Below, piece by piece: positions 5,435 through 16,836 of a stretch of DNA of 33,290 bases; position 1 is the first letter of the stretch, and every line of letters starts with the position of its first letter. Below the pieces are notes generated by a model that did not search any database, was not told where the DNA came from, and saw only the letters and a program-made list of their open reading frames with translations. Where the stretch lies: NCBI GenBank assembly GCA_025922915.1, contig JAICGY010000002.1, positions 1 through 33,290 of the forward strand, read 5' to 3'. The DNA is from Candidatus Methylomirabilota bacterium (GTDB lineage Bacteria; Methylomirabilota; Methylomirabilia; Rokubacteriales; CSP1-6). A program made the position numbers and the translations under genes.

Positions 5435-6411
5435 GCGTGGCCCATCACCGCGACGCGAACGACCCGAAGCCCCGGTCCCTCGGCGCCGCCGCGCTGCGCG
5501 AGGCCGACTTTCCCATACCCACGGGGGTGCTGCCGGCCGACGCCCGGAGTCGGCGCACGGAATCGCCGACCATGCAGGCGCTGCGCCGGCTCCGCCGGAG
5601 CACGACCGCCCTCATCGGGCTCGGCATCGTGGTGGCGCTGCTGCTGGTGGCCGCCCTCGCCGACGTGCTGGCCCCGCAGAGCCCGATCGTCAGTGACCAG
5701 ACCCAGACGTTCCGGCTCCCGAGCGCCGAGCACCCGATGGGGACGGACCAGCTCGGCCGCGACATGCTGAGCCGCGTGATCCACGGCTCGCGGGTCTCCC
5801 TGGCCGTCGGCGTGTCCTCCGTGCTGCTCGCCCTCTTCGTCGGCGTCCCCATGGGCATGATCGCCGGGTTCTACGGCGGGCGGGTGGACACGATCGTGAT
5901 GCGGGTGATGGATCTGATCCTCGCGTTTCCCGTCTACCTGCTGGCCATCATCATCATGGTGATCTTCACGCCGACGGCGGGCTGGCTCGGCACCATCAAG
6001 GTGATCGGCGCCATCGCCATCGTGCGCATTCCGATCTACGCGCGCCTGGTCCGGGGCAGCGTGCTCTCGATCAAGGAGAAGGAGTACATCGAGGCGTGCC
6101 GGGCCCTCGGGCAGCGCGGTCCCTCCATCCTCCTGCGCCACGTCCTGCCGAACAGCCTGGCTCCCGTCATCGTGGCCACGACCCTGGGGATCGGCACCGC
6201 CATCATCGTGGAGGCGACCCTGTCCTTCCTCGGCCTCGGGACCCAGCCCCCGACGCCGAGCTGGGGATGGGATCTCAAGGCCAACGTGGCCTTCATCCAG
6301 GCCAACGCCTGGCTGACGATCTTCCCCGGGCTGGCGATCTTCGTCACCGTGCTCGGGTTCAACCTGTTCGGGGACGGGTTGCGGGACGCCCTCGACCCGC
6401 GGCTCAAGTAA
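5431..6411 (+). CDS. dppC: ABC transporter permease (DppC/OppC family)
   Basis: GTG at 5431 overlaps the dppB stop (GTGA). LRRSTTALIGLGIVVALLLVAALADVLAP...HPMGTDQLGRDMLSRVIHGSRVSL...EYIEACRALGQRGPSILLRHVLPNSLAPVIV is diagnostic. The track ORF starts too early. Confidence 0.93.
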   Translation: MSVAHHRDANDPKPRSLGAAALREADFPIPTGVLPADARSRRTESPTMQALRRLRRSTTALIGLGIVVALLLVAALADVLAPQSPIVSDQTQTFRLPSAEHPMGTDQLGRDMLSRVIHGSRVSLAVGVSSVLLALFVGVPMGMIAGFYGGRVDTIVMRVMDLILAFPVYLLAIIIMVIFTPTAGWLGTIKVIGAIAIVRIPIYARLVRGSVLSIKEKEYIEACRALGQRGPSILLRHVLPNSLAPVIVATTLGIGTAIIVEATLSFLGLGTQPPTPSWGWDLKANVAFIQANAWLTIFPGLAIFVTVLGFNLFGDGLRDALDPRLK

Positions 6412-7441
6412 CCGGCCGGCGCTGCCGGGTCTCCGACCCGGGCGCCGGCGCGCCGCGAACGGAGAGTCGCCACAGCGCCAGCCAGGCGCCGAGTCCCATC
6501 GCCGTGAAGGTGACGAGGCTTCCGACGGCGAGGGTGGCCGCGTTGGTGAGGCCCTGGCTGATGTTGCAGCCGTCCCCGAGCAGCGCCGCGCCGCCCATGA
6601 GCAGGCCGCCGGCGAAGAGCTTCACGAGGCTCCATCCCGGAGGGAGCTTCCAGCGGAACTCCCCCGCGAGCCAGGCGCCGCCCCCAGCACCGGTCACCAC
6701 CCCGACGAGCAGGAGCATGCTCCAGGTGATCCGGTTCGGGAACCCCACCATGACGTACGTGAGCCAGTGGCCCGTGTTGGCGCTGAAGGTGATGCCGACC
6801 GGCGAGTCGGCGAGGCTCGAGGCCCACCAGCCCGCCGCGATCAGGAGGCCGACGGCGACACCGGTCAGCGGCCACGGCCACCTGCCGGGCGCGGGCGCGG
6901 CCCGCGCCCGGAGAAGCCAGAGGCCACCCGCCAGCACCAGCGCTGCGACCGCGATCCACGGGGGCACGCCGATGACGCTCGCGAGCGTGGGGGACGCCCC
7001 GTCCACGGAGAGCGTCGGCGCCTGGAGTGTCCGGCGCAGCGGCGCGAGCGCGCCGATCCCCACGACGCTGGCGCCGACGGCGAAGCCGAACAGGACCACG
7101 AGGGCGCCGATGGCGCCCTCACCGACGCGGTACCACGTGCTGGCCGCGCATCCACCCGCGAGGACCATGCCGACTCCGAAGAGCAGCCCGCCCAGTCCGT
7201 TGGCCAGCCAGCGAAACGGGCGGACAGGAAGCTCCACCACGCCCAGGCCCGACAGCAGGTGGACGCCGACGACGGCCACCAGCAGCGCCAGGATCCAGGC
7301 CCGGAGCAGCGTGGCGTCCCCCGCCAGCACGAGGTTCGCCAGCGCCCGGGTCAGACAGAACCCGCCGCGCTGGATGACGTAGCCGAAGAGCGCGCCCAGC
7401 GCCAGCGCGGAGGGGACCATGGCCCAGGGGGGCTCGTCCAT
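6404..7441 (-). CDS. YeeE/YedE family transporter, thiosulfate transporter (TsuA)-like
   Basis: Multi-TM protein with family motifs carrying conserved cysteines: QRGGFCLTRA, LAGGCAASTWYRVGEG, LLGDGCNISQGLTN. Confidence 0.88.
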   Translation of the reverse strand: MDEPPWAMVPSALALGALFGYVIQRGGFCLTRALANLVLAGDATLLRAWILALLVAVVGVHLLSGLGVVELPVRPFRWLANGLGGLLFGVGMVLAGGCAASTWYRVGEGAIGALVVLFGFAVGASVVGIGALAPLRRTLQAPTLSVDGASPTLASVIGVPPWIAVAALVLAGGLWLLRARAAPAPGRWPWPLTGVAVGLLIAAGWWASSLADSPVGITFSANTGHWLTYVMVGFPNRITWSMLLLVGVVTGAGGGAWLAGEFRWKLPPGWSLVKLFAGGLLMGGAALLGDGCNISQGLTNAATLAVGSLVTFTAMGLGAWLALWRLSVRGAPAPGSETRQRRPVT

Positions 7442-7459
7442 GCGTGCCTCGATCGGCGA

Positions 7460-8347
7460 TCAGGTGCGCCGCCAGCCCACGACGGGCTCCGATGGCTCGA
7501 CCGGCTCCTGGCGGTCGAGCACCCGGAAGACGAGGACGAGCACGGCCAGCATGTCGATGGCGCCGCCGGCGCTCCACATGATGACCCCACCCCACCACTG
7601 GTCCTCCAGAGCGCTCACCCCGGCTCCGGCGGCCAGCGCGGCGTACGTCGGATACAGCACCCATGGACTCATGGTCAGCAGCAGGCCCAGCACGGCCTCC
7701 TGGAAGGCCCCCAGGAGGAGATACGCCATCTGCGCGCCGGGATGGGCGGCCGGACGGAGCCGCGGTGCCGCCCCCAGCAGCGGCCACCAGAAGAGCACGC
7801 CGGCGCCGAAGAGGACCACGTGCTCGAGATCGTGCACGAGCCGATCGCCGAGCGCCGCTTCCCAGGCCACGGGGGCGTGCCAGAGCCAGAGCGCCAGCGC
7901 GGAGAGCAGCCAGGCCACCGGCATGGCGGTGAGCGCCCGCCACAGCCCCCGCAGGGAGCCGCCCGGACGGAGCGGTGCGCCGCCCCAGAGTCGCGCCGGC
8001 CGCGGAAGCCCCCACAGGACGACCGGCAACGGGTTGGCGAGGAGGAGGGCCGGGGCCGCCAGCTTCAGCAGGAGGAGATGCTGGACCTTGTGGGCCGAGA
8101 AGCGCGCGTGCGCCCACTGATCCAGCGGAGAGAGGAGCGCGCCGGCGATCGACGCCACGCCCGCCACCGCGGCGGCGAGACGCCAGGGCGGCGCCAGCGC
8201 CGGCCGCCGCGTCCGCAGGCGCCACCAGCCGAGCGCGTAGAGGCCGAGGGCGACGGCCAGGGGAGCGGCGACCTCGGGCCGCCATCCGCCGGTCAGGGCG
8301 GTGGTCGACTCGGCGAGCGTCGGAAGCGAGCCGGCCGGGTGCGCCAT
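7460..8347 (-). CDS. ctaG: Cytochrome c oxidase assembly protein, CtaG (caa3-type) family
   Basis: From ATG at 8347: MAHPAGSLPTLAESTTALTGGWRPEV...; SPLDQWAHARFSAHKVQHLLLLKLAAPALLLANP, LWHAPVAWEAALGDRLVHDLEHVVLFGAGVLFWWPLLG are CtaG_Cox11/caa3_CtaG-type motifs. Confidence 0.88.
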   Translation of the reverse strand: MAHPAGSLPTLAESTTALTGGWRPEVAAPLAVALGLYALGWWRLRTRRPALAPPWRLAAAVAGVASIAGALLSPLDQWAHARFSAHKVQHLLLLKLAAPALLLANPLPVVLWGLPRPARLWGGAPLRPGGSLRGLWRALTAMPVAWLLSALALWLWHAPVAWEAALGDRLVHDLEHVVLFGAGVLFWWPLLGAAPRLRPAAHPGAQMAYLLLGAFQEAVLGLLLTMSPWVLYPTYAALAAGAGVSALEDQWWGGVIMWSAGGAIDMLAVLVLVFRVLDRQEPVEPSEPVVGWRRT

Positions 8348-8360
8348 GCCGCAGCGCGCC

Positions 8361-8453
8361 TCACTTGCGCCAGGTGAGCACCACGACCCAGGCAAAGAAA
8401 ACCAGCGTGCCCACGAGGAAGATCCCGAACGCCAGCATCTCGATCCCCGGCAT
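8361..8453 (-). CDS. Very small single-TM membrane protein (30 aa), possibly CcoQ-like
   Basis: MPGIEMLAFGIFLVGTLVFFAWVVVLTWRK*: one TM followed by a basic tail, packed between oxidase genes (13 nt before ctaG). Confidence 0.5.
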   Translation of the reverse strand: MPGIEMLAFGIFLVGTLVFFAWVVVLTWRK

Positions 8454-8464
8454 CGCGGCTCCCT

Positions 8465-8569
8465 TCACGGGCCCTGCACGACGACCGCCACGACGTTGAA
8501 CAGGGCGTCGCTCGCGAGGATGAGGAGATTCAGCACCGCCAGCCCGAGGAGCAGCCAGACCGCCCTCAT
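8465..8569 (-). CDS. Very small single-TM membrane protein (34 aa)
   Basis: MRAVWLLLGLAVLNLLILASDALFNVVAVVVQGP*, read directly from the minus strand. Its ATG overlaps the TGA of the upstream 71-aa ORF. Confidence 0.5.
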   Translation of the reverse strand: MRAVWLLLGLAVLNLLILASDALFNVVAVVVQGP

Positions 8570-8781
8570 CGCGCCAGCCCCGGCCCCAGTCCGCCCCAGA
8601 ACTTGACCAGGTAGTAGACGCCCCAGATGGTGAGCACGGCGTACACGAGCAGCAGCCAGCGGTTGACGAACCCGTGATAGCTACGGATCTCGCCCTGGGC
8701 AAACTCCTCGATGTGGCCACGCTCGCGCTCGTGCTCGGCGATCACCCGGTCCCGGTCGGGTCTATCCTCGGCTGTCGTCAT
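8566..8781 (-). CDS. Small membrane protein (71 aa), candidate stand-alone CcoP-like N-terminal anchor
   Basis: MTTAEDRPDRDRVIAEHERERGHIEEFAQGEIRSYHGFVNRWLLLVYAVLTIWGVYYLVKFWGGLGPGLAR: single TM. Resembles the NxLPRWWLxLFYxTIxxxxxYLVxYPGLG anchor of CcoP by eye only. Confidence 0.6.
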   Translation of the reverse strand: MTTAEDRPDRDRVIAEHERERGHIEEFAQGEIRSYHGFVNRWLLLVYAVLTIWGVYYLVKFWGGLGPGLAR

Positions 8782-8938
8782 GCTCGATGCCCTCGCTCCG
8801 CAGTACCTGGTACCTCGCCCCCTCGACGTGGCGGAGCGCCCCTGAGGCCACCCCCCACAGGAACAGGCACAGGGCGGCCAGGCCCATCAGGAGGGAGACG
8901 AGGAATTCTCCGATCACGAGATAGATCAGCTCCTGCAT
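8762..8938 (-). CDS. ccoS: CcoS-like cbb3 oxidase maturation protein (58 aa)
   Basis: MQELIYLVIGEFLVSLLMGLAALCLFLWGVASGALRHVEGARYQVLRSEGIEHDDSRG*: FLWxVxSGxxxxxEGxxxxxL matches the CcoS pattern. Not in the ORF track (short). Located immediately after ccoO. Confidence 0.72.
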   Translation of the reverse strand: MQELIYLVIGEFLVSLLMGLAALCLFLWGVASGALRHVEGARYQVLRSEGIEHDDSRG

Positions 8939-8941
8939 CGG

Positions 8942-10582
8942 CTACCTGCCCTCCCCCACGATCCCCTTGTGGAAACGCACCAGCGCCTTGGCGTCCGTCC
9001 GGTCCGGCGCCGCGGGGTCCAGGGCCAGCCGGGAGCTGCGATGGGCTTCCTGGTCGGGCCGGTTGAGTCGCTCGAGGACGTCGGGGGCCAGCTTCAGCCG
9101 CTCGCCGGTCAGGGGGTCGTTGAACGCGGAGAAGGACAGCACGAAGTAGCTGATGGCCCAGCGATCCTCCTCGCCCAGCGCATCGGCGAAGGAAGGCATC
9201 GGCGTCCCGTCCAGCCCGGTGGTCATGGTCCGGAAGATGTCGCGCACGTCGGCCCCGCCCTTGAACTGGCCCTTCGTGAAGTCGGCGGGCAGGATCGGGA
9301 AGCCCAGGTCGTCCTCGAGCTGGTCCGCCGACGGGCCGTCACCCTTTCCGGTATCGCCGTGGCACTGGAAGCACTTGGCCTTGACGTACCACTCCTTGCC
9401 CCGGGCCAGCAGCTCCGGCGTGGCCGGCGGGGGCTGACCGATGAGGACGGGCGTCTCCGGCTTCTCCTCCTTCCAGCGCTCGGAGAAGGTCTTGATGAAG
9501 GTCAGCACGGCCAGGCGGTCCTTCTCGTGAAGCTCGTGCCAGGTGGGCATGGCCGTGAACCGGACTCCCGTATTGACCGTCCGGAAGAGGTCGCCGTCGG
9601 TGGGCAGCGATCCCGACGGCGTCGTCCGGAACTTGAAGGCGCCCACGACGAAGTTGCGGGGCCGGGGGTTGAGGAAGGTCGCCACGGGTCCGTTGCCGTC
9701 GCCCTTGACGCCGTGACAGCCCACGCACCGACGCTCGTAGACCTCCCGCCCGCGCGCCTCCAGCTCCTCGGTGCGCGGGATCGACATCACGCTGGCCGAG
9801 AGGTTCTGGGGCTCGAAGACGTCCCGCCAGGCCCCCCGGTTCATCCCGAGCTTCTGGATGTAGGCCACGAGCCCGCGGAGCTCCTCGGTGGGCACGACGA
9901 CCGTCAGGATCTTGCCCTTCCAGGTCTCCAGCGCGTTGTAGGGCTCGGGGAGATTCTCGACGTCCAGCACCGGCGTGCCGTCCGTCTGCTCGGCGAAGGC
10001 GAGCCCCTCGGGATTCGGATGGAGCCGGATCGCCCGGTCGGCCCGGCCGCTGAACAGGGCCGCCAGCGCGGGCGAGTCGCCCAGCGCGGCCTGCCCCTCC
10101 TTCTCGACGACCGGCACGCGGGCGGTCCGGAACAGCCAGGGGAAGCGCGGCATGATCGAGTCGGGCACCACCATGGTCGGATCCCAGTGGTGGGCGTAGT
10201 GCCACTGGTCGGAGTACTTGAGGCCCACGCGCGTGAGGTCGGGGCCGATGCGCCGGGTGGACAGCAGATGGGGCCGGTCGTGCGCGTACTCCCCGACCTG
10301 GGAGACCGGCCCCCAGCGGAATTCCTCGCCGGTGACCGGACGCACGAACTGGCTGTGACAGTACCAGCACCCTTCGCGCTGGTAGACGTCGCGGCCCAGC
10401 TGCTCCAGCGGCGTGTACGGCGTGGCGTCGTACCAGACCCACTTGACCTGCCCGAGCTCGTTGCGCACGGCGCGGGTGGCGCGCGTCTCCCGCGACTCGG
10501 GAATGGCGATCGGCAGGATGCCCTGGACGAAGATGGCCAGCGAGATGAAGAAGAACCCGGCGCCCAGAGCGTAGGTCCTCAC
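8942..10582 (-). CDS. ccoO: cbb3 oxidase CcoO subunit fused to a C-terminal diheme (CcoP-like) cytochrome c region; three CxxCH motifs
   Basis: N-terminus: REGCWYCHSQFVRPVTGEEFRWGPVSQVGEYAHDRPHLLSTRRIGPDLTRVG (CcoO/FixO). Then CVGCHGVKGDGNGP and CFQCHGDTGKGDGPS domains. Heme motifs at 10355-10369, 9713-9727 and 9359-9373 (minus strand). Confidence 0.93.
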   Translation of the reverse strand: MRTYALGAGFFFISLAIFVQGILPIAIPESRETRATRAVRNELGQVKWVWYDATPYTPLEQLGRDVYQREGCWYCHSQFVRPVTGEEFRWGPVSQVGEYAHDRPHLLSTRRIGPDLTRVGLKYSDQWHYAHHWDPTMVVPDSIMPRFPWLFRTARVPVVEKEGQAALGDSPALAALFSGRADRAIRLHPNPEGLAFAEQTDGTPVLDVENLPEPYNALETWKGKILTVVVPTEELRGLVAYIQKLGMNRGAWRDVFEPQNLSASVMSIPRTEELEARGREVYERRCVGCHGVKGDGNGPVATFLNPRPRNFVVGAFKFRTTPSGSLPTDGDLFRTVNTGVRFTAMPTWHELHEKDRLAVLTFIKTFSERWKEEKPETPVLIGQPPPATPELLARGKEWYVKAKCFQCHGDTGKGDGPSADQLEDDLGFPILPADFTKGQFKGGADVRDIFRTMTTGLDGTPMPSFADALGEEDRWAISYFVLSFSAFNDPLTGERLKLAPDVLERLNRPDQEAHRSSRLALDPAAPDRTDAKALVRFHKGIVGEGR

Positions 10583-10585
10583 CCG

Positions 10586-12001
10586 TCACACTCGGGCCAG
10601 CCGCTCGAGCGGCTGATGGCGGGCCGGCAGGCTCGGCAGGGGCGTGCCGGCCAGGGCGGTCCGCATGAAGTTGTAGACCAGGAGCGACATGCCGACGTCC
10701 ATCGAGATGCCGGCGAAGGTCCGGATGAGCCAGAAGGGCTTCAGGGTGACCATCGTGTCGACCCACTCGGCGCCCCCGATCAGCATGTAGCCCTGTTGCA
10801 GCCCTTGTGAGGAGAGGACCAGCCCCATCGTGGAGATGCCGAGCGTGATGAGCCAGAAGCTCCAGTTCCCGAGCCGGAAGCTCCAGAGGTCGCGGCCCCA
10901 CAACCGCGGCCACACGTAGATGGCCCCGGCCATCGCCCAGACCACGAAGGTCCCGAACACGGTCAGGTGCGAGTGCGAGATCACGAAGTCCGTGAAATGG
11001 GTGGGGCGCTGGATCCACCGAAGGGCTTCCGTCGAGCCCTGGAAGCAGCCGACGAGGTACATGATGGCCCCCATCATCAGGAACTTGGCCGGGAGGTTGC
11101 GAGAGAAGCCCTGCCAGTGCCCGATCATGGTCCCGAAGAAGTTCTGGAGCACGGTCCACACCGGGATGATGAGCATCATCGAGGCGACGATGGCGATGGT
11201 CTCGGCCCAGTCGGCGATCGGGCTGAAGAGGTAGTGGTGGATCCCCACGAACGGGTAGAAGAACGCCAGCGACCAGAAGCCGATCAGCGAGAGCTTGTGG
11301 CTGTAGATCGGAGCCCGCACCGACGCCGGCAGGAAGTAGTAGATCAGCACGTAGCCCGCGGGGGTGATCCAGAGGCCGACCACGTAGTGGATGAACAGCC
11401 CGTGCAGCGCCGCGTTGTTGATCCCGGCCGCGGTCCAGTAGGGCCCGACCACGAGGAGCACGAGGTTGATGCTGGTCCAGACCAGCGCCCCGATGAGGTA
11501 CCAGAGACTCACGTAGAGCTGGCGCTGCACGCGGCGGCCGATGGTCATGAGGTGCTGCAGGGTCAGCAGCCAGACCAGTGCCACCACCACGACCAGGTTG
11601 GGCAGGGGGATCTCCCCCGCCTCCCAGCCGCGGTTGGCGCCCAGCACCGAGAAGGCCAGGAAGGTGGCGGCCAGGTTGAGGTTCCAGATCCAGAGCAGCG
11701 GATAACCCCAGCGCTCCTTCCACATCGGCACCCCGGCCAGACGCGGGGTCACGTAGTAGATGAGCCCGATGAACAGCGTGGAGAAGGCCCCCCAGATGAC
11801 GCCGTTGACGTGCACGGGCCGGAGCCGGCCGAAGGTGAGCCACGACTGCTCGCCGAGGAAGGCGGGGTAGTTGAACTTCGTGGAGACGATCACCCCGATG
11901 GTCGGTGCGAACATCAGCCAGAAGAAGCCCCAGAGGAGCCATCCCCGGATCAGCCGGGGATCGATGAGCTCGTCGTTCCGGGTTCTCGCAACCTCGTTCA
12001 T
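10586..12001 (-). CDS. ccoN: cbb3-type cytochrome c oxidase catalytic subunit I (CcoN)
   Basis: From ATG at 12001: MNEVARTRNDELIDPRLIRGWLLWGFFWLMFAPTIGVIVSTKFNYPAFL..., RPVHVNGVIWGAFSTLFIGLIYYVTPRL, YPFVGIHHYLFSPI, FVISHSHLTVFGTFVVWAMAGAIYVWPRL. Confidence 0.95.
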   Translation of the reverse strand: MNEVARTRNDELIDPRLIRGWLLWGFFWLMFAPTIGVIVSTKFNYPAFLGEQSWLTFGRLRPVHVNGVIWGAFSTLFIGLIYYVTPRLAGVPMWKERWGYPLLWIWNLNLAATFLAFSVLGANRGWEAGEIPLPNLVVVVALVWLLTLQHLMTIGRRVQRQLYVSLWYLIGALVWTSINLVLLVVGPYWTAAGINNAALHGLFIHYVVGLWITPAGYVLIYYFLPASVRAPIYSHKLSLIGFWSLAFFYPFVGIHHYLFSPIADWAETIAIVASMMLIIPVWTVLQNFFGTMIGHWQGFSRNLPAKFLMMGAIMYLVGCFQGSTEALRWIQRPTHFTDFVISHSHLTVFGTFVVWAMAGAIYVWPRLWGRDLWSFRLGNWSFWLITLGISTMGLVLSSQGLQQGYMLIGGAEWVDTMVTLKPFWLIRTFAGISMDVGMSLLVYNFMRTALAGTPLPSLPARHQPLERLARV

Positions 12002-12027
12002 CGGTGTGTCTCCGTCCGCAGCCCGGA

Positions 12028-12945
12028 TCAGGCCAGGGGCAGGTCCCGGCTGGCCTCGAACCGCTCGCCACGACTGCTGGTGACCACCACGCGGAGGGGC
12101 CCGCGGTGCCGGGCGCGCACCCGGAAGCCGATGAAGGGGTTGTCGCTGAGCGCCGAGGTCAGCTCGAACCGGCTCAGCGGCTCCGCGCCGTAGCGCACCT
12201 CGATCGTCTGCACGTAGAGGGGCTCGGACTCCTGGACGAACCGGCCCTCGCGAAGGGCCAGGCCCGTGCGGCTGGGATGCCGCATGAGGATCTGGACCAG
12301 CACGAGGGCGTCCCGGCGGACGAGGCCGCGCTTGAGCAGCTCGGGCACCCGGATGACCGGGGCACCGACCTCCTGGGGGGCCACCCGCGTCGGGGCCGGG
12401 CTGGCGCAGCCGCCCACGCCGTCCGGGATGGTGATGGGACGGCTCGCCGACCACCGGCCGTCCCGTGTGCACTCCGCCGTCGCCGTCACCACCGAGCGCC
12501 CCGTGTGCATGCGGCACTGGAACGAGAGGTAGACCTGCCCGTTGGCCGGCGAGAGGTGAAACACTCCCTTGGAGGGAACGGGATCGCTCTCGTTCGTGAC
12601 GTGAATGGTCGTGATGTGATGCGAGGGCTCCATCGGGTGATCCATCCTGATCACGACGGGGACCTTGGCGCCGTCGCCGGCCACGATAGGCACCTCGAGC
12701 CGGGGCCGGTGCAGCCGCTCGAGCGGAGAGGCGGCGTCCCGGTCGTCCAGCGCCCCGGAGTGGCGGCGCGGCGCCGCCGCCCCGGCCGGGCGGGGCGTCT
12801 CGCCGAGGAGCCAGATCGCCCCGGCGGCGAGGCCCAGGAAGCGGCGTCGCGAGCCGAGCCCATCCGGGCGAGACCGGGCCAGGTCGGGCGGCATTCGCGT
12901 GCCCCCGCCCGCCGCCGTCCCGGGCTCGCCCCACCATCGGGTCAT
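12028..12945 (-). CDS. SoxY-SoxZ fusion / SoxYZ-like sulfur carrier with Tat signal
   Basis: SRRRFLGLAAGA Tat signal. SoxY-like region (VPIVAGDGAKVPVVIRMDHPM...GQVYLSFQCRMHTGRSVVTATAE...DGVGGCAS; carrier Cys codon 12406-12408). SoxZ-like region (VLVQILMRHPSRTGLALREG...EVRYGAEPLSRFELTSALSDNPFIGFRVRARHRGPLRVVVTSSRGE). Confidence 0.85.
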   Translation of the reverse strand: MTRWWGEPGTAAGGGTRMPPDLARSRPDGLGSRRRFLGLAAGAIWLLGETPRPAGAAAPRRHSGALDDRDAASPLERLHRPRLEVPIVAGDGAKVPVVIRMDHPMEPSHHITTIHVTNESDPVPSKGVFHLSPANGQVYLSFQCRMHTGRSVVTATAECTRDGRWSASRPITIPDGVGGCASPAPTRVAPQEVGAPVIRVPELLKRGLVRRDALVLVQILMRHPSRTGLALREGRFVQESEPLYVQTIEVRYGAEPLSRFELTSALSDNPFIGFRVRARHRGPLRVVVTSSRGERFEASRDLPLA

Positions 12946-12972
12946 CGTCGGGTCACGTCCGCGCCGATCGGC

Positions 12973-13440
12973 TCAGTGCCGGCCGGTGTCGAGCTTGGAG
13001 CCGCGGTTGGCCCAGTAGATGTAGGCTTCCAGGGCCTTCATCGCCGGCCCGTCCGGATCGATCTTGACGCCCTCGTTGGGCTTCTCGATGCACCAGTTGA
13101 TCATGTCCCGCAGCGTGGCGAACGCGTTCATCTGCTCCTGGAACTTCGGGAACTCGTGCGGATGACTGTCGGAGGCGAAGGGATGGCACATGGCGCACGC
13201 CATCCCGGTGTTGGACAGCTTGATGTTCATCTGCTTCTCGGTGTCGGCGTCCCCGTGAAACAGGAGATCGCCGAGCCGGACCTGCTCCATCAGGACCTGC
13301 TGGAACGCGTCGAGCTGCTCCTGCGAGTGCTTCGCCTTGTGGGCGAGGGCCGGCGCCGGGCCCCAGAGCGAGCTGGCACCAGCCCCCAGCAGTCCGAGCA
13401 GCCCCGCTCCCAGCGCGGCCAGCGCGAGTTTCCCCTTCAT
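12973..13440 (-). CDS. Exported monoheme cytochrome c, SoxA-like
   Basis: Signal peptide, CAMCH at 13183-13197, then EFPKFQEQMNAFATLRDMINWCIEKPNEG...AMKALEAYIYWANRG, which resembles the SoxA pattern (FP..., LexxInxCxxxP, ALxxYixxxsRG). Confidence 0.7.
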   Translation of the reverse strand: MKGKLALAALGAGLLGLLGAGASSLWGPAPALAHKAKHSQEQLDAFQQVLMEQVRLGDLLFHGDADTEKQMNIKLSNTGMACAMCHPFASDSHPHEFPKFQEQMNAFATLRDMINWCIEKPNEGVKIDPDGPAMKALEAYIYWANRGSKLDTGRH

Positions 13441-13459
13441 GGCTCTTCCCCCGGCTCTC

Positions 13460-14602
13460 CTAGTAGGGCCACATGCGATCGGCGATCCTGGGATGCAGGA
13501 TCTGGTTGACGTTGTCCGCCGTGCCGGAATCCACCACGGACTCGGCGAAGACCTCCTTGCGGCCCCACATCACGTACTCGTTCTCGATCCGGCCGGCCGC
13601 GCCGGCCGTGAGCTTCGAGTAGCCCACGCCGTCGAAGTGGTCCCCGGGGTCGGCCCGGATCATGGGCTTGGTCAGCGGGGGCACGCCCTGCGGCGCATAG
13701 GGCCACGGCCAGGACGTGGCCAGCATCCCGATGGAGCGCATCGAGCCGAGCTCGTTGTACAGCACCTGATGCGTGTGGCCGTGGATGTTGGTGACGTTGC
13801 TGAAGGGCTTGAGGATCTCGTTGACCTCCCGCCAGTCGCGCGTCCAGAAGTTCCATGGGGGGTAGTACTCGTAGAGGGGCGTGTGGGTGAAGACCACGAG
13901 CGGCCGGTCCTTGGCCCAGCCCGACACCGTCTGCTGGAGCCACTGGCGCTGCTCGTCGCCGACGCCGGCCCAGGGCCCGGCCACGCTGCCGTCCAGCGTG
14001 GCCATGTGGCCCATCCGCTCCTTCGGCGACATCTTCTTGGCGGACCAGTAGTCGGGGGCGAACCCCACGGTGTTGAGGCCGATGAAGCGCACGCCGTTGT
14101 GGTCGAACGTCCAGGGGGTCTTGCCGAACATCCGTTCCCACTTGGCGCCCATGTCCAGGTACCAGTCGTGCTCACCGGGGATGAAGTGCTTCTTGATGGT
14201 GAGCTCCTTGAGGATGTCCGCTCCCAGGTCTATCTCCACGGGATCCCCGAGCTGCGCCAGGTCCCCGCCGAAGATGAGGAAGTCCGCGGGCGGGCTCATG
14301 GCCTTGATCTCCTTCACGGCCCGCACCGTCTTGTCCACGAACCGGGTGTTGACGTCCTTGGGGTACAGATGGGTGTCCGAGAGCCAGGCGAACTTGAAGG
14401 CGGCCTGCTGGCCGAAGGCCAGGTCGAGCGTGTTGATGACGGGGAACCATCCGACCGAGGCCACGCCGGCCGCGGTGCCGGCCAGGATGGCCTTGTTGAT
14501 GAACAGCCTTCGAGTGATCGCCAGGGATCCATCCGGGCGCCCGCCCGTGTCGATCTCCATGGCGACCTGCCGCGGGTCGAGGTCGACCTCCCGTGGCTCC
14601 AT
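13460..14602 (-). CDS. Tat-exported calcineurin-like metallophosphoesterase
   Basis: From ATG at 14602: ...ITRRLFINKAILAG (Tat motif). Metal-site motifs SDTHLYP, FGGDLAQLGDP, PGEHDWY (GNHD variant), FTHTPLYEYYP, NIHGHTHQ. Confidence 0.88.
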   Translation of the reverse strand: MEPREVDLDPRQVAMEIDTGGRPDGSLAITRRLFINKAILAGTAAGVASVGWFPVINTLDLAFGQQAAFKFAWLSDTHLYPKDVNTRFVDKTVRAVKEIKAMSPPADFLIFGGDLAQLGDPVEIDLGADILKELTIKKHFIPGEHDWYLDMGAKWERMFGKTPWTFDHNGVRFIGLNTVGFAPDYWSAKKMSPKERMGHMATLDGSVAGPWAGVGDEQRQWLQQTVSGWAKDRPLVVFTHTPLYEYYPPWNFWTRDWREVNEILKPFSNVTNIHGHTHQVLYNELGSMRSIGMLATSWPWPYAPQGVPPLTKPMIRADPGDHFDGVGYSKLTAGAAGRIENEYVMWGRKEVFAESVVDSGTADNVNQILHPRIADRMWPY

Positions 14603-14619
14603 GGCCGCTCCTTTCTCGG

Positions 14620-15339
14620 CTACTTCTTCTTGGCCAGATCGATGGTGACGGTAGCGGTCTCCTTGGCCTTGACGGTGACGGGCGTCTCCACCTCCTCGGT
14701 GTGCTCCTGCCAGGCCACCAGCGTGTACGCTCCCGGCGGCACGTCCTTGATGGTGAACGAGCCATCCTTCCCGGTGACGGCATAGTAGGGGTTGTCGGCC
14801 ACGTAGACCCAGGCCAGCATCCAGCCGTGGGCGTCGCACTCGACGCGCATGATGCCGGTCTTCTTGATCGGCTTCTTGATGGTCTGGCCCTGGATGGGCA
14901 GGGCGACGTTGAAGGCCGTCAGCTTGCCGAAGAAGCCGTGAGTGTTGTGGAGCACGGGATCCGAGTTGTGGATGGCCACGTCGCCCATCCGGATCACCTG
15001 GACGTGGGGCAGGAACCGGCAGTCCTTGTTGTCGATCACCGGGGGCTGGGCCGGTTTCTCCCAGGCCTTCCCCCTCTCCACGCCCTTGAGATACACGAAG
15101 CTGCCTTCCACCGCCTTGTCCGGGCCCAGCAGGATGCGCGCCTGCTCGCGAATGCCACCGCACACCTCCTTGTCCTTGGTGGGGATGATCTTCCGGGGCG
15201 ACGGGACCGCTCCGGTGAACGTCACCGTGCCCTTGATGGTCCCCCCATCGGTGACCGAGATCGCCTGATAGCTCGCGGCCGGCCCGCTCGACAGCAGCAG
15301 GCCGGTCAGCAGGGTGACGGGTCCGATGAGCCGACGCAT
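14620..15339 (-). CDS. Exported carboxypeptidase-regulatory-like / cupredoxin-like protein
   Basis: From ATG at 15339: signal peptide MRRLIGPVTLLTGLLLSSGPAASYQA, GTIKGTVTFTGAVPSPRKI, VLHNTHGFFG, MRVECDAHGWMLAWVYV (Cys/His/Met cluster), then DGSFTIKDVPPGAYTLVAWQE. Confidence 0.8.
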   Translation of the reverse strand: MRRLIGPVTLLTGLLLSSGPAASYQAISVTDGGTIKGTVTFTGAVPSPRKIIPTKDKEVCGGIREQARILLGPDKAVEGSFVYLKGVERGKAWEKPAQPPVIDNKDCRFLPHVQVIRMGDVAIHNSDPVLHNTHGFFGKLTAFNVALPIQGQTIKKPIKKTGIMRVECDAHGWMLAWVYVADNPYYAVTGKDGSFTIKDVPPGAYTLVAWQEHTEEVETPVTVKAKETATVTIDLAKKK

Positions 15340-15358
15340 GAAGCGGTCTCCTTTTCGA

Positions 15359-15378
15359 CCCGGCCGCCGGCGGCCGGG
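15359..15378 (-). other. Perfect 20-nt palindrome between anti-sigma stop and next start codon (attenuator or processing hairpin?)
   Basis: CCCGGCCGCCGGCGGCCGGG is exactly self-complementary. It lies 4 nt after the anti-sigma stop and just before the RBS (aaaggaga) of the downstream gene; no U-tract. Confidence 0.5.
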
Positions 15379-15382
15379 CACG

Positions 15383-16213
15383 TCAGAGCTGGTCGTGAGC
15401 GCGCGAGCCGGGCGGCAGATCGATGCGGTCCTCGCGCGAATGGCAGACGAGGCACGAGCGGCCGCCGATCTCGGACACCAGCGAGTAGGCGATGCCGTGG
15501 GAGGCCCAGACGATGACGTCGTAGCCCTGGTGCGTGACCATCTTGAACTTCGGAGCGGCGTCGATGCCGAGGTCCCGGTATTTCTCGAACGGGATGACGA
15601 AGAGGGAGATGTCCCGTCCATCCATCTTGAAATGGAGAGCGGCGACCTCCAGGTCGCCCAGGTTGGCGATTCGCCCGCCGACCAGGTTGAGGTCGTCCCG
15701 CGTGAGCGTGGGCAGGTTGACGTTGAAGTTGAGCCGGGCCTTGAACCATTCCTCGGCGGCCCGGGGCGTGACCTCGCTGATGTCGAGGGGGAGGGTGCCG
15801 AGGGCCAGCTTGCGGTGCTGCTCGACGGAGGCGGCGGCCAGGTGCACGAGCGGCGATCGGTCCAGCCGCCAGAGCTGCACGCCGTCGGACGTCAGCCCGG
15901 TCTGGACCCCGAACCCGGCCAGGAGGCCGGCGACGAACAGCGCGCCGCCGGCCACGAGGTGCCGTCCCCACCGCCAGGCCGGCGCCACCGGCACGGTGTC
16001 GAGCATCTGGAGGACCCGAGCCCGCAGCCGCTCGGGCACCGGGTCCGGCCGGAGGGGGGCGATGTACTCGTCGGCGAAGCTCCGCTCCAGGTCCACCAGC
16101 CTCTGGCAGCCCCAGCAGCCGGCGAAGTGGTCCTCCAGGAGCGCGCGCTCCTCGTCCGGAAGCTCGCCGTCCAGATACTCGAAGAGACGGGCGCGCGCCT
16201 GCTTACAGAGCAT
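15383..16213 (-). CDS. Membrane-anchored zinc-finger anti-sigma factor with C-terminal CxxCH
   Basis: N-terminal ZAS motif (HFAGCWGC), single TM (HLVAGGALFVAGLLAGFGV), C-terminal sensor region ...VWASHGIAYSLVSEIGGRSCLVCHSRED. Start overlaps the sigma stop by 11 nt. Confidence 0.88.
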   Translation of the reverse strand: MLCKQARARLFEYLDGELPDEERALLEDHFAGCWGCQRLVDLERSFADEYIAPLRPDPVPERLRARVLQMLDTVPVAPAWRWGRHLVAGGALFVAGLLAGFGVQTGLTSDGVQLWRLDRSPLVHLAAASVEQHRKLALGTLPLDISEVTPRAAEEWFKARLNFNVNLPTLTRDDLNLVGGRIANLGDLEVAALHFKMDGRDISLFVIPFEKYRDLGIDAAPKFKMVTHQGYDVIVWASHGIAYSLVSEIGGRSCLVCHSREDRIDLPPGSRAHDQL

Positions 16214-16775
16214 GGCCGTTCCGGGCGCGCGCCGAGATCGCCGGGGCCGCCTCCTGGAGCGCGAGCCGGACGAGATTGCGGCCCCGGAAGAGGCGTGACA
16301 TGACCGTGCCCACCGGTGCGCCGACGACGGTCGCGATCTGCTGGTACGACAGTCCCTCGATCTCGCGCAGCTCGACGACCTCCCGGAGGACGACGGGCAG
16401 GCGCCGGATGGCGTCCCGCACCTCCTGCAGGGCCGCCCGCCGCAGCAGGATCTCCTCCGGGTTCAGCGGGACCGGGTAGAGCAGCACGTCCCGGACCGCA
16501 TCCGCAGCGACCCCCTCCTGGGAATCACGGTCCTCGAGCGGGCGCGCCCGGCGGCGGCGCATACGGTCGATCTCGGCGTTCTTCATGATCGTCAGCATCC
16601 AGACCTTGAAGCTCAGCTGAGGCTTGTAGGAGGAGAAGGCTTGCAGGGCCTTGAGGAGCGATTCCTGAAGGAGATCCTCGGCTTCCGCGTCGTTCCGGCT
16701 CAGCAGCCGGGCGTACCCGTAGAGCGTGGGCAGATGGCTCAGAGCGAGGTCCTGGAACGCCGATTCGTGCTCCAT
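16203..16775 (-). CDS. ECF (sigma-70 family) RNA polymerase sigma factor
   Basis: Region 2 (YARLLSRNDAEAEDLLQESLLKALQAFSSYKP...FKVWMLTIMKNAEIDRMRRRR) and region 4 (LPVVLREVVELREIEGLSYQQIATVVGAPVGTVMSRLFRGR). Confidence 0.95.
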   Translation of the reverse strand: MEHESAFQDLALSHLPTLYGYARLLSRNDAEAEDLLQESLLKALQAFSSYKPQLSFKVWMLTIMKNAEIDRMRRRRARPLEDRDSQEGVAADAVRDVLLYPVPLNPEEILLRRAALQEVRDAIRRLPVVLREVVELREIEGLSYQQIATVVGAPVGTVMSRLFRGRNLVRLALQEAAPAISARARNGHAL

Positions 16776-16804: not shown

Positions 16805-16836
16805 AGAGTAGTACGTATCGGCGGGCAGCTTATTCC
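16805..16836 (-). promoter_or_regulatory. Candidate ECF-type autoregulatory promoter (GGAATAA -35, CGTACT -10)
   Basis: Minus strand reads GGAATAAGCTGCCCGCCGATACGTACTACTC about 30-60 nt upstream of the sigma ATG (16775). GGAA.../CGT... fits the general ECF promoter shape. Single site only. Confidence 0.4.

Follow-up and report, generated by a model that had tools for sequence, protein, structure and literature searches.

A candidate autoregulated ECF operon for a periplasm-fed, cbb3-like respiratory chain in Methylomirabilota, with a CxxCH motif in its anti-sigma factor

The window analyzed here is a 33,290-nucleotide stretch (contig JAICGY010000002.1, positions 1 to 33,290) of a metagenome-assembled genome (MAG; assembly GCA_025922915.1; 3.97 Mb in 509 contigs, 89% complete) of an uncultured soil bacterium of the Methylomirabilota lineage, which among named genomes best matches Candidatus Rokubacteria; the incompleteness of the MAG weakens claims of absence. 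It carries an array of 14 genes, all on the minus strand and running from position 16775 to 6404, whose family identities are borne out by Pfam and NCBIfam scans: an extracytoplasmic function (ECF) sigma factor and a membrane anti-sigma factor, a type-1-copper-like protein (cupredoxin), a metallophosphoesterase, a cytochrome c, a fused SoxYZ, the oxidase subunits CcoN and CcoO, four small membrane open reading frames (ORFs), CtaG, and YeeE (Table 1). We refer to this array and its counterparts in other genomes as the module. The genes, re-called from the sequence, are spaced by −20 to +43 nt, with overlaps of 11 nt between the sigma and anti-sigma genes, 20 nt between small ORFs 1 and 2, and 4 nt between small ORFs 2 and 3. 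The gaps from the anti-sigma gene through ccoO to small ORF 1 are 43, 17, 19, 27, 26, 3, and 3 nt, and those from small ORF 3 to yeeE are 11, 13, and 18 nt. An earlier description made from the letters alone (the sequence-only reading) had proposed 14 same-strand genes with short gaps or overlaps, including 3 nt each between ccoN and ccoO and between ccoO and ccoS, and the re-called coordinates agree on both counts. Its gene descriptions were accurate overall, except for the start of CtaG, the fused nature of CcoO, and the identities of small ORFs 1 and 2, which are corrected here.

The sigma factor contains regions 2 and 4, and its partner combines a cytoplasmic HxxxCxxC zinc finger with one transmembrane segment, as befits an ECF sigma/zinc anti-sigma pair. 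The anti-sigma factor continues into a periplasmic RseB/MucB-like domain and ends in a C-terminal CxxCH motif (residues 254–258), which had been overlooked when the protein was first, and correctly, identified. The motif is invariant in an alignment of 11 Rokubacterial anti-sigma proteins, is kept in homologues from Binatia and Tectomicrobia at 28–31% identity, and is present in every module-linked homologue checked, across three phyla; such invariance in proteins only 28% identical rules out an accident. Nearly all family members unlinked to the module, whether from the same or other genomes, lack CxxCH and end like ...VSDLxxEEL, with exceptions in three genomes. An AlphaFold model built from 14 sequences has a mean pLDDT of 74, with the periplasmic domain, though not the tail, modeled confidently, and its best Foldseek matches, of modest significance, are RseB and MucB. 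Judging from the invariant heme-attachment motif, the anti-sigma factor may be a cytochrome-like sensor that switches the respiratory chain on. The same CxxCH-bearing sensor domain also turns up away from the module in genomes G041 and G042, in two cases joined to a CheY-like receiver domain in place of the zinc-finger part.

Upstream of the sigma gene lies an ECF-type promoter. The elements GGAATAA and CGTA, separated by a spacer of ~13–15 nt and located 42–73 nt before the sigma start, are found in the window and in all 10 other Rokubacterial loci examined, one of which (L058) has the variant CCGTA and a spacer longer by one base. The motif, with a chance expectation of ~7.5e-5 per 130 nt, has a single match in the window and a single match in the entire MAG, in line with the original proposal that the sigma gene alone is preceded by a candidate ECF promoter. 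The array region yielded no sigma-70-like promoter. Terminator-like sites number 6 in the region when both strands are counted, against 2.4 ± 1.8 in shuffled sequences; three weak ones lie on the coding strand inside ccoN and ccoO. Because the promoter is kept in 11 of 11 Rokubacterial loci and occurs once in the MAG, the predicted autoregulation of the whole array from this promoter is supported.

The motif CDAHGWM of the copper protein recurs in 18 of 18 homologues. In the phosphoesterase, the usual GNH(D/E) metal-ligand motif is replaced by GEHD, as in all 24 sequences aligned; its profile matches GpdQ, and a low-confidence model is nearest to GpdQ and Rv0805. It consists of PF00149 alone, lacking the 5'-nucleotidase C domain of SoxB, and this architecture, together with the nearest folds, rules out its identification as SoxB. 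The cytochrome matches the profiles of SoxA (1h31) and TsdA, and the Cys of its INWC motif, conserved in 21 of 22 homologues (the sole exception being a mis-framed extract), falls in the column of the axial Cys, which we take to be the heme ligand in SoxA and TsdA. It has the SoxA-type heme domain with a Cys, for which heme ligation is predicted. The fused SoxYZ shares its GGC(A/V) arm with nearly all homologues and scores below the equivalog cut-offs (43 versus 125 bits for SoxY_true and 41 versus 76 bits for SoxZ_true); a rhizobial SoxZ encoded beside the module passes the latter with 77 bits. A second group of fused SoxYZ in the phylum (L062, L064, and L066) adjoins genes for YeeE/TsuA-family proteins and alternative complex III, a distinct association of SoxYZ, YeeE, and respiratory genes.

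CcoN aligns over its full length to the cbb3 oxidase structure 3mk7, from which the helix-VI CuB His was read, and all checked columns of His ligands of hemes b and b3 and of CuB, as well as the helix-VII cross-link Tyr, are conserved in 28 of 28 module CcoN. The presence of this Tyr disfavors an NO reductase, and the enzyme reads as a putative O2 reductase, cbb3-like albeit non-canonical. Its score of 194 bits falls short of the CcoN equivalog cut-off of 583 bits, the NCBIfam cut-offs for CcoO and CcoP are likewise not reached, and a single fused three-heme protein stands in place of a separate monoheme CcoO and diheme CcoP. In a tree made by a quick method, module CcoN group in a clade set off by a long stem (SH-aLRT 99), apart from the canonical CcoN of Thiocapsa, Cupriavidus, and Sinorhizobium. 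The initial description of a plain cbb3-type oxidase is not supported, given the separate clade and the fused subunit; on the equivalog scores and the clade, we reject canonical cbb3 as a classification and retain it as a description of how the enzyme may work. YeeE has TsuA as its best NCBIfam matches, at 165 bits against a cut-off of 400 that is not reached. Some loci have a tandem copy of the oxidase, with a second array of CcoN, CcoO, and small ORFs encoded immediately upstream of the sigma gene and in the same orientation (Table 1).

Table 1. Features of the array in the window and related features at other loci.
Feature	Position	Strand	Basis or remark
ECF-type promoter, GGAATAA-N14-CGTAC	16811..16836	-	61 nt upstream of sigma start
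ECF sigma factor, regions 2 and 4	16203..16775	-	Pfam PF04542, PF08281
Membrane anti-sigma factor	15383..16213	-	zf-HC2; alignments; model and fold match
Exported type-1-copper-like protein with carboxypeptidase-regulatory-like domain	14620..15339	-	PF13620; LHNTHG...CDAHGWM
Tat-type metallophosphoesterase, GpdQ/CpdA-like	13460..14602	-	PF00149
Monoheme SoxA/TsdA-like cytochrome c, conserved axial-type Cys (INWC)	12973..13440	-	PF21342
Fused SoxY-SoxZ carrier, internal GGC arm	12028..12945	-	PF13501, PF08770 over cut-off
CcoN-like heme-copper oxidase subunit I	10586..12001	-	COX1; alignment to 3mk7
CcoO with a fused CcoP-like diheme part, three CxxCH	8942..10582	-	FixO and two cytochrome c domains
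CcoS/FixS-like small membrane protein (small ORF 1)	8762..8938	-	PF03597, E=2e-4, just below cut-off
Small ORF 2, resembling CcoP N-terminal membrane anchor (FixP_N)	8566..8781	-	PF14715, E=0.0095, below cut-off
34-aa membrane ORF at a conserved position	8465..8569	-	tblastn in relatives
30-aa membrane ORF, position conserved	8361..8453	-	tblastn in relatives
CtaG-like (Caa3_CtaG) oxidase assembly protein, ATG start 8347	7460..8347	-	PF09678
YeeE/TsuA-family transporter	6404..7441	-	PF04143 (Sulf_transp) over cut-off
Tandem oxidase arrays	L042 15228-18800; L045 7000-10700; L086 3939-7600
CxxCH sensor-receiver fusions	L192:9007-10212; L193 around 8800	-; +

The gene order from the sigma factor to CtaG recurs across Rokubacterial genera, in at least 11 genomes. 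The placement of YeeE after CtaG is confined to the window and the nearest relative (G040), with a weak partial match at one further locus, and YeeE is rejected as a conserved component since most module loci lack it. When the phosphoesterase was used to scan 85,462 species genomes, the best 80 loci came from Rhizobiales, Burkholderiales, Thauera, Thiocapsa, SAR324, Tectomicrobia/Entotheonella, Binatia, Nitrospirota, Ignavibacteria, and others; the module core also occurs in Cupriavidus. Among the 61 loci of at least 15 kb (long loci), which come from many phyla, the phosphoesterase gene lies near a gene for the cytochrome in all 61, for a cupredoxin in 60, for CcoO in 59, and for CcoN in 57. 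The sigma/anti-sigma pair was seen only in loci of Methylomirabilota, Binatia, and Tectomicrobia; in Proteobacteria, where the pair was not seen, an OxyR-like LysR regulator, present near the module in 11 loci overall, often takes its place. Rokubacteria, Binatia, and Tectomicrobia have the fused SoxYZ between the cytochrome and CcoN, but SoxYZ is often missing from the module locus; SoxYZ homologues occur in 64 of 95 genomes of the phylum. Collectively, the core of cupredoxin, phosphoesterase, cytochrome, and oxidase is widespread, while the sigma/anti-sigma pair, the fused SoxYZ, CtaG, and YeeE are additions particular to certain lineages. The sequence-only reading had looked to synteny of all 14 genes in relatives: a co-directional array is indeed conserved, but with YeeE shared with the closest relative alone and SoxYZ often missing from the locus it is not one fixed 14-gene unit. 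The gene order, for which no standard description had been known, is new in its details, whereas the core order is common in Proteobacteria.

The trio of cupredoxin, phosphoesterase, and cytochrome also has other partners, either MauG-type enzymes or another cbb3-like oxidase, so that the term "self-contained" once applied to the module is too strong. In gammaproteobacteria of the Arenicellales type (L142, L145, L148, L149, and L153), the trio is accompanied by a different COX1, about 29% identical, and by extra cytochromes. A plasmid of S. meliloti RCAM1115 carries an IS66 element immediately upstream of the phosphoesterase gene (L158 10876-13280), and the oxidase half of the module is found beyond GroEL, hemA, and SCO.

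Links to sulfur metabolism recur in other lineages. In Rhizobiales, the module occurs with SCO1, flavocytochrome-c sulfide dehydrogenase (FccB, with FCSD_central and FCSD-flav_bind, PF21706 and PF09242; and FccA), SoxZ, and SoxY, and the annotation of the S. meliloti plasmid CP050559.1 at the module lists soxZ, SoxY, hemA, and GroEL. SoxY, SoxZ, SCO, and FccB follow the oxidase in SAR324, and in Methylobacterium planeticum FccB and an SBP56/MtoX-like gene lie beside the module. SoxY/SoxZ or FccB is encoded within about 10 kb in 43 of the 61 long loci, which are not independent, many being rhizobial. Where a module genome lacked linked SoxYZ, SoxY was encoded elsewhere in 13 of 18 cases. SoxB (TIGR04486) had no match in the MAG or in the closed, single-contig 2.75-Mb genome of Ca. 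Methylomirabilis (G025); it is found in many other Rokubacteria, and module genomes are mixed in this respect. Within the operon, to which that search was confined, no separate gene for SoxX or SoxCD was seen. The suggested link to sulfur is upheld insofar as FccAB and SoxYZ genes independently accompany the module in other lineages, but a canonical Sox pathway is not supported, given the lack of SoxB in the MAG and the GpdQ-like phosphoesterase. This repeated linkage and the SoxA/TsdA-type heme site with its conserved Cys suggest that the module is probably fed by sulfur compounds.

From gene content, synteny, and the conservation of motifs and promoter, we infer a substrate, an electron route, a heme attachment, and a signal. 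The core would comprise the type-1-copper protein, the exported metallophosphoesterase, the monoheme Cys-heme cytochrome, and the divergent cbb3-like oxidase with the CcoP hemes carried on CcoO. Sulfide, sulfane sulfur, or thiosulfate would serve as the reduced sulfur compound, held on the SoxYZ GGC arm and oxidized at the Cys-ligated heme of the cytochrome, with electrons passing by way of the copper protein, the three hemes of CcoO, or both to the CcoN site, where O2 would be reduced; the phosphoesterase may hydrolyze or otherwise process an intermediate in place of SoxB. The RsiW-like anti-sigma factor would hold the sigma factor until the redox, ligand, or maturation state of a heme c, covalently attached to the CxxCH tail of its RseB-like domain, triggers release, and the freed sigma factor would activate the single GGAATAA/CGTA promoter. 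We regard it as an evenly balanced proposition that these genes make up an autoregulated ECF operon, controlled by a heme sensor, whose products form an O2-reducing chain fed from the periplasm with sulfur compounds. More tentatively, anti-sigma factors of this class could be c-type cytochromes, in which the tail heme senses redox state, a gas, or cytochrome maturation and thereby activates the sulfur-fed, cbb3-like oxidase operon. The CxxCH sensor and the OxyR-like neighbors suggest an oxidant, redox, or reactive-sulfur signal.

Several observations weigh against this proposal and lend substance to others. In Ca. Methylomirabilis (L055 and L056), the genes for the trio and SoxYZ are flanked on both sides by genes for MauG-like diheme cytochromes, with no oxidase; in the genome of L097, a CxxCH sigma/anti-sigma pair adjoins a MauG-like gene; the OxyR-like regulators flanking the module in Proteobacteria suggest an oxidant signal; and SoxY was not found in five module genomes (Nitrospirota, Syntrophobacterales-like, and Ignavibacteria), so that the core cannot depend on SoxYZ everywhere. 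These facts, and the MAG without SoxB, would fit a chain for oxidant response or O2 scavenging that is not dedicated to sulfur, in which respiratory electrons simply travel through the copper protein and cytochrome to the oxidase or a diheme peroxidase and in which SoxYZ, FccAB, and YeeE are lineage-specific additions. We consider such a chain rather unlikely in light of the repeated independent linkage to FccAB and SoxYZ and the SoxA/TsdA-type heme site; moreover, OxyR can respond to sulfane sulfur too. A SoxB-less Sox pathway specifically for thiosulfate, to which YeeE would supply imported thiosulfate, appears improbable: a YeeE/TsuA-family gene adjoins the array here, and others stand next to fused SoxYZ and alternative complex III genes in further Rokubacteria, but YeeE would carry its substrate into the cytoplasm whereas the enzymes are exported, most module loci lack it, module genomes differ in whether they encode SoxB, and the FccAB linkage points to sulfide. 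Chance adjacency of unrelated same-strand genes is practically negligible: small gaps by themselves are found in any compact genome, but the same order is kept across genera and phyla; the synteny check proposed for this purpose has already refuted it.

Another alternative concerns the CxxCH tail. The tail is short and disordered in the model (pLDDT about 33–45), a second axial heme ligand is not evident, and some CxxCH sensors (G041, G042, and L248) do not adjoin the module. A CxxC pair is a classic thiol switch, and it is a realistic, if somewhat doubtful, possibility that the tail works as a switch based on a dithiol or a metal (Zn, Cu, disulfide, or persulfide) and senses oxidants or reactive sulfur. 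A dithiol switch would have no need of the His, which all CxxCH members keep, the receiver-domain fusions among them; in addition, as the operon encodes four c-type hemes besides the CxxCH tail, the machinery for c-type maturation is presumably present.

If the heme-sensor proposal holds, the heme-motif anti-sigma factor in the Rokubacterial form of the module would link the redox state of the periplasm directly to transcription. The module, which is widespread in soil, rhizobial, marine, and groundwater bacteria, culturable strains included, may couple sulfur oxidation directly to high-affinity O2 reduction without SoxB. In the open-access literature, to which the search was limited, we found neither a functional description of the module, a weak negative given that subscription papers were outside its scope, nor anything relevant on heme-bearing anti-sigma factors; the novelty of both is provisional. 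Homologues in Sinorhizobium and Cupriavidus make genetic testing feasible.

The locus resembles several known systems without coinciding with any of them. With RsiW/RsrA-type zinc anti-sigma factors and the RseA-RseB and MucA-MucB pairs it shares the zf-HC2 domain, a single transmembrane segment, and a periplasmic domain weakly matching RseB/MucB; unlike in the latter pairs, the RseB-like domain is part of the anti-sigma factor itself, with its invariant CxxCH. Similar to Sox (SoxXA-YZ-B-CD), the array encodes SoxY and SoxZ domains with a GGC arm, a SoxA-type heme domain with a Cys, and an exported metallophosphoesterase, as SoxB also is; in contrast to Sox, SoxYZ is fused with an internal rather than C-terminal GGC arm, the SoxA-like protein is monoheme and single-domain, and the phosphoesterase is GpdQ-like, without the 5'-nucleotidase C domain, in a MAG without SoxB. 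Thiosulfate dehydrogenase TsdA has the same heme domain and axial-Cys column, but two heme domains instead of one, and here the gene lies within an oxidase operon. The thiosulfate transporter TsuA/YeeE belongs to the same PF04143 family as the protein encoded here, which is below the TsuA cut-off and not a conserved part of the cluster. Finally, cbb3 (C-family) CcoNOQP oxidases are alike in the CcoN ligands, the helix-VII Tyr, the FixO domain, the three c-type hemes, and a CcoS-like protein, and in Proteobacteria the module has DsbD_2-type and CcoI-like copper ATPase neighbors; whereas here the CcoP hemes are fused to CcoO, the small membrane anchor is separate, and the fixed partners are a copper protein, a phosphoesterase, and a SoxA-like cytochrome.

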